Shown here one piece after another: positions 3,277-61,201 of a stretch of 64,000 nt of DNA. Position 1 is the stretch's first letter, and each line of letters opens with the position of its first letter. The notes under the pieces are model-generated. The model searched no databases, was not told the origin of the DNA, and saw only the letters and a list, made by a program, of their open reading frames with translations. This DNA comes from Bacteroidota bacterium (GTDB lineage: Bacteria > Bacteroidota > Bacteroidia > 2-12-FULL-35-15). Location of the stretch: contig PLYN01000049.1 of the NCBI GenBank assembly GCA_003151815.1, forward strand, positions 16,566 to 80,565, read 5' to 3'. The position numbers and the translations under genes were made by a program.

Positions 3277-3401
3277 TTGGAAGATTGCAAATTACAGATT
3301 GAAAGATTAGTTATTATTTTACGACAATTCTTGTCTAATAAAATGAACCTGATTCGTAGAAAACTTTGAACGAACAAACTTTGAACTTTAAATTAAGTTA
3401 A

Positions 3402-3812
3402 ATGAATCATTGGTTAGTAAAATCAGAACCTTTCAAATACAGTTGGGAAAAATTTGTAAAAGATAAAAAAGCCGTTTGGGATGGCGTTCGCAACTATGCT
3501 GCCCGCAACAATATGCGCGCAATGAAAAAGGGTGACCTCGTATTTTTTTACCATAGCAACGAAGGGCTCGAAATTGTTGGAATAGCTAAAGTAATAAAAG
3601 AAGCCTATCAGGACCCAACAACTGATGATACCTCATGGAGTGTTGTTGATATTGCACCTTTCAAGGCATTAAAGCGACCCGTAACATTAGCAGAAATAAA
3701 AGCGGATAAACAATTGGAAGGAATTCAACTTGTTCGTTTAAGTCGCTTATCGGTAGCCTCCATAAAACCTGAGGAATTCGACAGAATTTTGGAATTATCA
3801 GAAAAGAAATAG
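3402..3812 (+). CDS. EVE domain-containing protein
   Basis: A 136-residue protein that is essentially one EVE domain, the PUA-like fold also found in human THYN1 that binds modified bases in DNA or RNA. It opens with the hallmark WLVKSEP (residues 4-10) followed by W-D-G-V-R-N-Y-A-A-R, then the strand GDLVFFYHS and the segment IVGIAKV. Length and motif order match stand-alone bacterial EVE proteins. There is no neighbouring restriction or methylation gene, so its ligand is unknown. The start ATG at 3402 fits the family N-terminus. Confidence 0.92.
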   Translation: MNHWLVKSEPFKYSWEKFVKDKKAVWDGVRNYAARNNMRAMKKGDLVFFYHSNEGLEIVGIAKVIKEAYQDPTTDDTSWSVVDIAPFKALKRPVTLAEIKADKQLEGIQLVRLSRLSVASIKPEEFDRILELSEKK

Positions 3813-3820
3813 CATTTATT

Positions 3821-3990
3821 TACCACGGAGGCACAGAGAACACGGAGGTTCACGGAGAACTTGTTCCATAAAATTATTCAATTTGTGTCATCCCGAGCTT
3901 TTCACGAGAAATCTTCGTTTTACTATACGATATTGCCAATAAAATTTATGTCCTCTGTGTTTCTTTGTGTTCTCTGTGTCTCCGTGGTTA
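3821..3990. repeat. Intergenic inverted-repeat element, family D (CACGGAGG words)
   Basis: The left arm starts TACCACGGAGGCACAGAG and continues with CACGGAGGTTCACGGAGAAC. The right arm ends GTTCTCTGTGTCTCCGTGGTTA, read here in two pieces at 3968-3990. The arms are complementary, and each iterates a CACGGAGG-like word every 8-10 bases. The interior contains GTCATCCCGAGC, a phrase I recognise as common in Bacteroidota intergenic repeats. It fills most of the 313-bp gap before pyrG; short ORFs across it are not real. Confidence 0.75.
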
Positions 3991-19506: not shown

Positions 19507-20406
19507 ATGAATTTAATTCAACCATCATACTTGAAAAATGGCGACAAAATTGGCATTGTAGCGTGTGCGAGAAAAATTTCACCCCAAGAAATGAATCCTG
19601 CTATTGAAATTTTTAAAAGTTGGGGATTGGAAGTGGTGTTGAGTAAAAATTTATTTAATGCCGATAACCAGTTTTCGGGAACAGATAATCAACGAACTGA
19701 GGATTTGCAAGCCATGTTGAACGATGCTTCTGTAAAGGCCGTAATTAGTGCCCGCGGCGGATACGGAACAATGCGCATCATTGACAAAATTAATTTTAGA
19801 GAATTTACAAAAAATCCAAAATGGATAATTGGTTATAGCGATATCACTGTATTGCATTCACACATTCATACATTAGGAATTGAAACATTGCATGCAACAA
19901 TGCCCATTAATTTCACTAAAAATGAAGATGCAATTAAAACTTTGCGAAAAGCTTTGTTTGGAGAGATGCTGAACTATGAAGTTGAAACACATTCTTTAAA
20001 CAGAAAAGGTAGTACAGAAGGAGAATTAATTGGTGGAAATTTGTCTTTGCTGTACGCCTTGATGGGCAGCATTTCGGATATCGATACCAAAGGAAAAATT
20101 TTATTCATTGAAGATCTGGATGAATATCTTTATCACATTGACAGAATGATGATGAATCTGAAACGAGCTGGAAAATTAAGTCATTTAACGGGTTTAGTAA
20201 TCGGTGGAATGACGGATATGAAAGACAATGCCATCCCATTTGGTAAAACAGCAGAAGAAATAATTTTAGATGCCGTAAAGGAATACAATTATCCTGTATG
20301 CTTTAATTTCCCAGCCGGACATGTGGATAGAAATTTAGCGCTGTATTTTGGCAGAAAAATAAAACTGGAAATTTCTGAAAAAGTAAATTTGGGCTTCTTA
20401 ATTTAA
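19507..20406 (+). CDS. LD-carboxypeptidase (peptidase S66)
   Basis: A 299-residue cytoplasmic serine peptidase that removes the terminal D-Ala from murein tetrapeptides during cell-wall recycling. Motifs are the ARGGYGTMRI loop (about 78-87), the nucleophile Ser in IGYSDIT (about residue 112), the Glu in IEDLDEYLYHIDRMM and the His in PAGHVDRN near the C-terminus. This gives the Ser-Glu-His triad of the LdcA family. The length is normal. It is convergent with the gene at 20613; the intervening element supplies a terminator. Confidence 0.93.
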   Translation: MNLIQPSYLKNGDKIGIVACARKISPQEMNPAIEIFKSWGLEVVLSKNLFNADNQFSGTDNQRTEDLQAMLNDASVKAVISARGGYGTMRIIDKINFREFTKNPKWIIGYSDITVLHSHIHTLGIETLHATMPINFTKNEDAIKTLRKALFGEMLNYEVETHSLNRKGSTEGELIGGNLSLLYALMGSISDIDTKGKILFIEDLDEYLYHIDRMMMNLKRAGKLSHLTGLVIGGMTDMKDNAIPFGKTAEEIILDAVKEYNYPVCFNFPAGHVDRNLALYFGRKIKLEISEKVNLGFLI

Positions 20407-20410
20407 AATG

Positions 20411-20599
20411 GAACGCGGATGACGCAGATTGTTATGATAAAAACAAGATTTTTTTGTTATTGTATTATAACTTTTCCTATAAATAAAAAAGATATTGAAA
20501 ATGCTTCAATATCTTTTTTAGAAAAATCAAAATTTTCAGTATTCTACCAAGCTTATTTTTTATCCTTTTTAGTCATAACAATCTGCGTCATCTGCGTTC
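20411..20599. repeat. MITE-like inverted-repeat element, family B (GACGCAGATT words)
   Basis: Left arm GAACGCGGATGACGCAGATT and then GTTATGA (20411-20437); right arm TCATAACA and then ATCTGCGTCATCTGCGTTC (20573-20599). The arms are near-perfect inverted repeats of about 27 bp, each built of two ~9-nt words. The interior holds a 15-bp perfect hairpin at 20485-20519. A solo left arm recurs at 47170-47197. The 72-residue ORF across it is not considered real. Confidence 0.85.
20485..20519. terminator. Bidirectional terminator-like hairpin inside the family B element
   Basis: AAAAAAGATATTGAA and TTCAATATCTTTTTT form a perfect 15-bp stem with a 5-nt loop, flanked by A and T tracts. It would work in both directions between the two convergent genes. 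Confidence 0.75.
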
Positions 20600-20612
20600 T
20601 ATTTACACTTTG

Positions 20613-25484: not shown

Positions 25485-25545
25485 AGTCTTGAGTCTTTAG
25501 TATTAAGAACAAAACATACTAAATACTAACGACTAAATACTAAAA
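25485..25545. repeat. Iterated-word repeat between sdhC and sdhA
   Basis: AGTCTTGAGTCTTTAGTATT on the left faces ATACTAACGACTAAATACT on the right; they are imperfectly complementary, and each repeats a word such as AGTCTTTAGTATT/ACTAAATACT. It has the same two-arm design as the larger intergenic elements but lies within an operon. Confidence 0.45.
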
Positions 25546-25552
25546 TTAAAAT

Positions 25553-41666: not shown

Positions 41667-41685
41667 GCGCCATCACTTAAAAAAT

Positions 41686-41823
41686 TTAACCACATAGAAA
41701 CATAGGTTTTACGCTTGTTATAGTTTTTAATTAAGTAACACAAAGATCATTGAAGCCGTGCTTCAATGCTATGATTTTCTATTAAAACTTTATTAAATTT
41801 TTTCTATGCAACTATGTGGTTCA
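41686..41823. repeat. Intergenic inverted-repeat element, family E (CACATAGAAA words)
   Basis: The left arm AACCACATAGAAACATAG and right arm CTATGCAACTATGTGGTT are complementary with few mismatches. They are separated by about 100 bp of AT-rich sequence. The same arm is found in the element at 61061-61181. It sits between the aspartoacylase-like gene and rimK. Confidence 0.75.
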
Positions 41824-41829
41824 AAAATA

Positions 41830-43318: not shown

Positions 43319-43402
43319 TCTCGCGGATTGCGCAGAGTTTCGCAGATAAAACAAACAGAAAAAAAGCGAAATATCCGCGAAAATCTGCGCAATCTGCGAG
43401 AA
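43319..43402. repeat. Inverted-repeat element, family C (CGCAGATT words)
   Basis: The left arm TCTCGCGGATTGCGCAGAG plus TTTCGCAGAT (43319-43347) and the right arm ATCCGCGAAAATCTGCGC plus AATCTGCGAGA (43373-43402) are near-perfect inverted repeats of ~30 bp built of 10-nt words, with ~25 bp between. It extends the open frame of the following gene upstream and misleads start choice. Confidence 0.8.
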
Positions 43403-47151: not shown

Positions 47152-47169
47152 TGTTTAAATCAAAGAATA

Positions 47170-47197
47170 GAACGCTGATGACGCTGGTTGTTATGAT
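47170..47197. repeat. Solo arm of a family B element
   Basis: GAACGCTGATGACGCTGGTT followed by GTTATGAT matches the left arm at 20411-20437 with about three differences. The right arm is missing; the sequence runs into a family A element 30 bp later. Confidence 0.7.
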
Positions 47198-47230
47198 TTA
47201 ATAAGTTTTAAAATACTATACACTTTTTGG

Positions 47231-47380
47231 TTGCCACAGATTACACAAATTCTCACAGATTGGTCAACACACCTGTGTGCCGAAACGCACTTCGGTGTGC
47301 AGGCACAGATTCTTTTGTTGAGATTTATAAAATAATAATCTGCGAAAAAAATCTGTGTAAATTTGTGTAATCTGTGGCAT
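47231..47380. repeat. Intergenic inverted-repeat element, family A with internal hairpin
   Basis: Left arm TTGCCACAGATTACACAAAT, right arm ending ATTTGTGTAATCTGTGGCA. The interior contains a GC-richer hairpin, GTGTGCCGAA and then TTCGGTGTGC, unlike the AT-rich centre of the copy at 1462-1588. It separates yicC from gmk. Confidence 0.8.
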
Positions 47381-48315: not shown

Positions 48316-48421
48316 TTTTCTCGCAGATTTGCGCAAATTATTCGCGGAGTTTCGCAGATAAAATAATATAATAAAATCTGTGAAACTCTGCGAATTTCAA
48401 TCAGCGATACTCTGCGAGAAC
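48316..48421. repeat. Inverted-repeat element, family C (larger copy)
   Basis: The left arm TTTTCTCGCAGATTTGCGCA and the right arm ending ATACTCTGCGAGAAC are complementary at their ends. Each arm repeats CGCAGATTT- or CTCTGCGAA-like words several times. It lies between yicC and the EamA gene, two bases from the EamA stop. Confidence 0.78.
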
Positions 48422-49352: not shown

Positions 49353-49388
49353 TTCGTGCAAAGGACGCAAAGTTTTTTTCGCAAAGCA
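49353..49388. repeat. Iterated GCAAAG words upstream of the EamA gene
   Basis: TTTCGTGCAAAGGACGCAAAG is followed by TTTTTTTCGCAAAG: the word GCAAAG appears three times, the first two 9 bp apart. It resembles one arm of the two-armed elements elsewhere; no complementary arm was found. Confidence 0.4.
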
Positions 49389-61038: not shown

Positions 61039-61060
61039 AATTTCAATATAATCAATTTTT

Positions 61061-61181
61061 TAACCACATAGAAACATAGTTTTTTTACTCTATGTTAAAA
61101 ATTTATCTTTTTCTATGTAGTACTAATTTCATTTTTTTTTATAACTATTTTTGACAGCTTAGCTATGTTTCTATGTGGTTA
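61061..61181. repeat. Intergenic inverted-repeat element, family E (second copy)
   Basis: Left arm TAACCACATAGAAACATAGT, right arm GCTATGTTTCTATGTGGTTA, nearly perfect over 19-20 bp. Two inner copies of CTATGT-like words lie between them. It is the sister of 41686-41823 and sits between the IPExxxVDY gene and pyk. Confidence 0.82.
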
Positions 61182-61201
61182 AAAGATTACATAGAACGTC
61201 T

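Follow-up and report, generated by a model that had tools for sequence, protein, structure and literature searches.

An inverted pair of repeats, termed here the D element, lies at positions 3822-3860 and 3950-3988 of the stretch of DNA analyzed (64 kb, referred to as the window). Its arms are 39 nt long and 79% complementary and enclose a loop of 89 nt without a gene (3861-3949). Both arms are strings of short words such as CCACGGAG, GCACAGAG and AACACGGAG: the left arm, on the + strand, contains four words of the type designated class 1 below (ACCACGGAG GCACAGAG AACACGGAG GTTCACGGAG), and the right arm contains the left-arm words read on the - strand. Folded as single-stranded DNA the element reaches a z-score of -6.4, and a search of the whole window against Rfam returned no matches. 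The left arm (3816-3858) is identical at 42 of 43 positions to an arm of an element that carries a gene for a GxxExxY protein and is located at another locus in a related species (G028). Furthermore, the D element is common to the genome under study (G000, 2.53 Mb, 76.6% complete) and its nearest relative found (G030), with arms that can be aligned and a loop that cannot.

Several other repeats of this kind are found in the window, and we compared their positions with G030, the sole close sister genome available for comparison, which with about 76-83% identity in the best aligned genes is too distant to bring exact insertion points within reach. A gene-less class-1 element with A words (CACAGATT) is located at 1464-1587, and G030 lacks the words at the corresponding place. 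At two sites the genomes carry different elements between the same genes. In detail, a lone C-type arm at 2239-2285 with its words on the - strand corresponds to a complete A-word element in G030, and the site at 3277-3402, which judged by eye probably holds a decayed class-2 element (its right end shows 7-nt words on the - strand, e.g., AGTTCAA), is occupied by a class-1 element in G030. Class-1 elements with E words (CACATAG) and no gene are present at 41685-41824, where G030 has an empty site, and at 61054-61188, as detected by the inverted-repeat search. Two gene-less elements consist of C words: the one at 43319-43401 apparently has a decayed homologue in G030, and the one at 48318-48420 is not present there as such (76 nt versus 134 nt between the aligned flanks). 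The B-type element at 20406-20604 (GAACGCAGATGACGCAGATTGTTATGAT) is likewise gene-less; in relatives, elements with arms of this type contain a GxxExxY gene. A run of class-1 words on the + strand at 49356-49386 (GTGCAAAGGACGCAAAG...CGCAAAG) stands alone, as no second arm was seen by eye. Family F at 25486-25548 is a gene-less class-2 element with arms of 7-nt words (AGTCTTG AGTCTTT AGTATTA) and is flanked by the two ORFs that had been named sdhC and sdhA in the preliminary description of this DNA. A side observation from G030 concerns a gene for a 329-aa protein (L300, 4151-5140), which by our reading may be a DUF1016/YhcG-type nuclease; the gene comes immediately after a class-1 element, and the same site in G000 is taken by a probably decayed class-2 element.

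The region between yicC and gmk, two genes whose names were assigned from sequence, also differs between the sister genomes. In G030 this site is occupied by a B element that includes a GxxExxY gene (C60:11950-12415). In G000 an orphan B arm on the + strand (47166-47205), which is homologous to one arm of the G030 element, is found without the gene, and a gene-less element with A words (47232-47379) takes the place of the rest of the B element. Mobility of the elements is strongly suggested by such differences in presence and absence. A related copy of this A element is located elsewhere in G000 (C54:121072-121218). Each of the two copies has in its loop a different private hairpin insertion of about 32-36 nt (CCTGTGTGCCGAA...TTCGGTGTGCAGG and CCCGCCCGAACGACTGA...TCAGTCGGGCAGG). 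More generally, the arms of gene-less copies match and their loops are mostly unrelated, so that the unit of spread may be less than the whole element. The borders are unsettled as well, because in the one pair of copies whose loops are alike the similarity continues for about 25 nt past one of the arms. With this uncertainty, by which short duplications could be missed, no target-site duplication was found outside the arms (direct-repeat score of 4.51 versus 4.21 for cross-paired flanks).

To place these elements in a wider frame, 460 kb of the genome, consisting of the window, contigs C54 and C11 and part of C58 and chosen without regard to repeats, yielded 31 inverted pairs with a score of at least 18, whereas two dinucleotide shuffles both yielded none. 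The inverted repeats between the genes are thus real, and the D pair as well as the families A, B, C, E and F named before were all recovered. The preliminary description had assigned one design to all families, two inverted arms of iterated words of about 9 nt. Word-built inverted arms are indeed common to families A to F, but of the 22 strongest pairs in the 460 kb only 8 belong by eye to class 1 and 5 to class 2, and the other 9 are unrelated repeats. The latter (C54:66863, 93761, 113822, 133122, 155757 and 223392; C11:3362, 35654 and 96708) are of the kinds CGACTCCGCTCGAACTGACA and CTCCCCACAGGGGAGG or are paired palindromes such as GGTCGCAATTTGCGACC.

Nor do the word-built families form the single class of element that had been proposed: families A to E are class 1 and family F is class 2, and each class is tied to its own gene family. 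When 106 class-1 arms from beside GxxExxY genes were pooled, self-matches were in excess at lags of 8, 9 and 10 nt (z of 6.7, 9.4 and 9.6), and in 38 pooled class-2 arms from beside S23p genes they were raised only at lags of 7 and 14 nt (0.68 and 0.65 versus 0.32-0.33; z of 28 and 24). The best lag was 7 for 35/38 arms beside S23p genes and for 1/106 arms beside GxxExxY genes. The assumed word length of about 9 nt falls within the 8-10 nt of class 1, but does not apply to family F with its period of exactly 7 nt. Periodicity at 9-10 nt had also been suggested as a check for each arm; it appears in the pooled class-1 arms, but in the D arms taken singly a fixed-lag periodicity is not significant, as the variable spacing of the words masks the period of a single class-1 arm. 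The idea that an iterated word rather than a fixed sequence characterizes the elements holds insofar as the word varies among families, but the variation is not free, since nearly all class-1 words fit C[AG]CNNA[GT] with a spacing of 8-10 nt. These words point inward from both ends at 70 loci, outward at 1, and are unclear at 12. Class-2 arrays have a median length of 32 nt, which is between four and five words.

All four GxxExxY genes of G000 are located between class-1 arms, whose words (CACAGAG; CGCAGAG/CGCAGAT; CACGGAG; CACAGATT, respectively) are shared with gene-less families. One of these arm pairs is perfect over 41 nt, and an internal stop interrupts one of the genes. The sole S23p ("23S-IVS") gene of G000 lies between 7-nt arms with the words AGTTCAA/AGTTTAA. 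At the loci read, only GxxExxY or S23p was found between the arms. GxxExxY is a PD-(D/E)XK domain (TIGR04256/PF13366), as indicated by a profile match and an E...D...ExK active site, and consists of this lone domain of about 125 aa. The active-site residues E31, D71, E81 and K83 are invariant in 60 proteins from many phyla. A predicted model (pLDDT 96.6) has Cas4 and lambda exonuclease as its nearest structures with E-values > 0.001; searches by sequence against solved structures and in the phages covered gave no matches. The protein would thus resemble the Cas4/lambda-exonuclease group in its modeled fold and its active-site residues, and it differs from this group as a lone domain that is encoded inside a repeat element. 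S23p (PF05635) is a four-helix bundle similar to 2GSC, and S23p/IVP has been reported to form a homopentameric ring (PMC4990558).

The link between gene and arms extends across phyla. At GxxExxY loci from named genomes, 42/75 have arms scoring at least 20, compared with 4/300 cross-locus pairings, and for all loci the numbers are 83/144 versus 34/864 cross-paired for GxxExxY and 27/45 versus 24/270 for S23p; cross-pairing is a strict control because the loci share words. A score of at least 18 is reached at 95/144 GxxExxY and 34/45 S23p loci, so that about a third of the GxxExxY loci are without clear arms, whereas none of 21 control loci with a HigB-like toxin (PF05973) reaches even a score of 16. 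Hosts of class 1 are found in Bacteroidota, Ignavibacteriota, Chloroflexota, Planctomycetota, Verrucomicrobiota, Pseudomonadota, Acidobacteriota and Gemmatimonadota and include some archaea, e.g., Methanosarcinales (L142). All nine plasmid loci opened have arms, five of them around S23p (two in Nostoc and one each in Pseudanabaena, Riemerella and Azospirillum) and four around GxxExxY (Bacteroides finegoldii, Sphingomonas, Gemmatirosa and Bernardetia). On the Pseudanabaena galeata plasmid pPg_01 (L306) the S23p gene sits between cas6 and cas4 of a CRISPR locus, and the 7-nt words have grown into long arrays on both sides of it.

The number of words in a genome also depends on the gene. GxxExxY is present in 78 and S23p in 84 of the 99 genomes searched, with up to 23 S23p genes per genome. 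The tandem pattern CRCNRAGNCRCNRAG has 2496 matches in the 99 genomes compared with 326 for the reversed pattern; these divide into 2442 versus 275 in the 78 genomes with GxxExxY and 54 versus 51, i.e., no enrichment, in the 21 genomes without it. Class-1 words correlate with the number of GxxExxY genes (Spearman 0.67; partial 0.54 given genome size, control and S23p number), and the S23p number adds nothing to the class-1 word count in these genomes. The reversed pattern is a poor control for the 7-nt pattern because 7-nt arrays match it too, and total counts were therefore set against S23p number: the median is 8 arrays in 15 S23p-free genomes and 124 in the rest, and the correlation (rho 0.64) remains at 0.43 given GxxExxY and size. 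As the genomes are not mutually independent, the P values of these dose correlations are too small, and more weight belongs to the absence of words from genomes without the gene. Words far outnumber genes in many genomes, and therefore most elements are gene-less. In one genome (G036) the 7-nt pattern and its control each match about 2600 times, far above the others, with four S23p genes only; very long arrays are probably the source of this excess.

Gene and arms furthermore seem to be inherited as a unit. On a tree of 145 GxxExxY proteins the arm word type changes 18 times, compared with 30 times when shuffled within kin groups (0/300 shuffles as low), and within the genus 7 times compared with 13.3, a fit that is in part due to orthologous copies. 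At two conserved sites arms are closer to their own partner than to the arms of other species (4/120 permutations; 178/5000 samples), and in one S23p element (L233) the words are unlike those of its orthologues and alike on both arms. This is modest evidence for a concerted change of paired arms.

Taken together, we consider it probable that the inverted repeats between the genes belong to minimal selfish elements of two superfamilies, of which they are the MITE-like forms that have no gene. A complete class-1 element would consist of one GxxExxY gene between two inward-pointing arms with about 3-4 words C[AG]CNNA[GT] spaced by 8-10 nt, and a complete class-2 element of one S23p/IVP gene whose flanking arms have about 4-5 words each, repeated at exactly 7 nt; the 23S rRNA intervening sequences (IVS) would be members of class 2 that are inserted into rRNA genes. 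Each protein most likely recognizes the iterated word of its own element, and gene-less copies would have been moved in trans. How the movement proceeds can only be outlined speculatively. In class 1 the predicted nuclease might cut DNA at the word arrays, probably where the arms are folded back into a hairpin or cruciform, and host repair might then copy the element, or the arms alone, into another intergenic site; host repair has to be assumed because a lone PD-(D/E)XK domain cannot join DNA. Cutting of folded arms followed by repair copying would fit both the lack of a detected target duplication and arms that are shared without loops. Class 2 is without a catalytic domain, and any way of moving is here likewise a matter of speculation. 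One 7-nt word per subunit of the S23p ring is possible, as the array median lies between four and five words. Somewhat more doubtful than believable is, in our opinion, the far-reaching version of this idea, according to which a lone PD-(D/E)XK nuclease and a pentameric ring protein would each have founded a widespread mobile superfamily without transposase, integrase, recombinase or reverse transcriptase, would read iterated words in fold-back arms and spread gene-less arms in trans, and would together be the source of a large part of those 7-10-nt intergenic repeats in bacteria and some archaea that have so far had no explanation.

An unlikely explanation, but the best of those that compete with selfish elements, is that the arms act at the level of RNA as a transcript hairpin, which is removed by RNase III or insulates neighboring genes, with spread occurring via RNA or being incidental. 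The Coxiella 23S IVS, with an S23p gene, inverted ends and tandem heptamers (GACAGAT) at its 5' end beside the RNase III cut site (PMC4990558), points in this direction, as do the weak similarity of S23p to Avd of diversity-generating retroelements and the frequent location of elements within operons (thiG-thiH in G000, fabD-fabG on the Sphingomonas plasmid, cas6-cas4). However, a hairpin selected on the coding strand predicts more G-U than A-C mismatches between the arms, and G-U mismatches are the fewer ones in both classes (112 versus 150 for GxxExxY and 24 versus 47 for S23p). Selection for a coding-strand RNA hairpin is thus unsupported, with a mismatch skew that is slightly opposite, and Cas4 and lambda exonuclease, the closest structures to the class-1 nuclease model, have DNA as their substrate. 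We give a slightly lower chance to repeats that are not mobile at all but are kept by the host as regulatory or structural sites; GxxExxY or S23p would then be the regulator that binds them, with its own gene among its targets. The better conservation of the arms than of the loop in the D element of both genomes would fit, and some gene-bearing elements occupy the same site in several species; on the other hand, elements turn over fast between the sister genomes while adjacent genes persist, word matches range from none to hundreds among species of one genus, and a strictly conserved nuclease active site would be odd for a pure regulator.

It is very improbable that polymerase slippage and snap-back copying generated words and arms without a dedicated protein, the genes being passengers. 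Slippage has been offered for heptamers in literature known to us through its citation in PMC4679880, and some arrays are long and variable (Pseudanabaena, G036), but the words are missing from gene-free genomes, the two periods sort cleanly by gene and the word type follows the nuclease tree. The least probable origin of all, REP/RAYT elements or MITEs from the ends of a known insertion sequence, shares the outline of a gene with flanking inverted repeats and dispersed gene-less pairs, but only GxxExxY or S23p lies between the arms read, and the RAYT-like partner gene that had been envisaged is excluded in G000, barring a transposase with word ends in the quarter of the genome that is missing from the assembly: both Y1/RAYT genes of G000 have flanking repeats of a quite different kind, without the words. 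These two genes (L313, C14:1044-1382; L314, C34:60926-61270) have their own inverted repeats (AAAAGCCCTGAAAGGG... and GCTCCGTAGGAGCGACCTGT...) and represent a separate REP-like system within G000.

Selfish elements of two classes, the reading we prefer, resemble several known systems in part. Like class 2, the 23S rRNA IVS of Leptospira and Coxiella have a PF05635 protein, inverted ends and a gene that can be lost, but class 2 sits between ordinary protein genes and has 7-nt words on both arms; class 1 differs from the IVS by an unrelated protein and 8-10-nt words. Class 2 thus extends the 23S rRNA IVS, and family F is related to IVS but is not a 23S IVS, because the elements read lie between protein genes. 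REP/BIME sequences with RAYT (REPtrons) share with both classes inverted repeats around a gene and many dispersed gene-less pairs, whereas our elements are without a Y1 transposase and have iterated degenerate words instead of one palindrome. The gene-less elements are short, intergenic and dispersed and have inverted ends like the MITEs of insertion sequences, but have no parent transposase, no target duplication was found, and arms but mostly not loops are shared. Heptamer repeats have been described in Xanthomonas and Nostoc (GGGAATC, intergenic, often about four units, with 70-75 convergent, i.e., inverted, pairs per Xanthomonas genome; PMC4692102) and in Beggiatoaceae (TAACTGA, intergenic, with a 7-nt unit), for which a binding protein of unknown identity was suggested as the possible mobile element (PMC4679880). 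Unlike class 2, these repeats were described as G-quadruplexes or regulatory repeats, and neither paper (PMC4692102, PMC4679880) contains the terms S23 or four-helix. We predict that both would turn out to be class-2 arms.

The preliminary description knew of no named class that covers all families, and this agrees with the searchable literature, i.e., without subscription papers and preprints: no paper ties these repeats genome-wide to either gene, class 1 is not described, the sole paper naming GxxExxY lists it in a viral gene table, and no named system was found that pairs these proteins with word arms outside rRNA. GxxExxY and S23p ("four helix bundle") genes are common in bacteria but, to our knowledge, have no established function. 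Word and heptamer repeats have so far been treated piecemeal as products of slippage, as G-quadruplexes or as regulatory sequences. A link between gene and repeat gives both a testable role, offers a candidate cause for long-known bacterial repeats and suggests where else DNA mobility without a known transposase might be sought.

For annotation, a simple rule follows: a small gene for GxxExxY or S23p and the word arms on both of its sides are to be treated as a single element. The link also explains odd protein tails as translated arms. In L301 (1375-3165 and 3576-4319), and likewise next to other elements, the arms extend into adjacent reading frames, where they show up as the end or the start of a protein (GGTENTKKHGDK, MIFSVKLRVLCASVV), and such arm-derived tails and heads in public databases are likely annotation artefacts.
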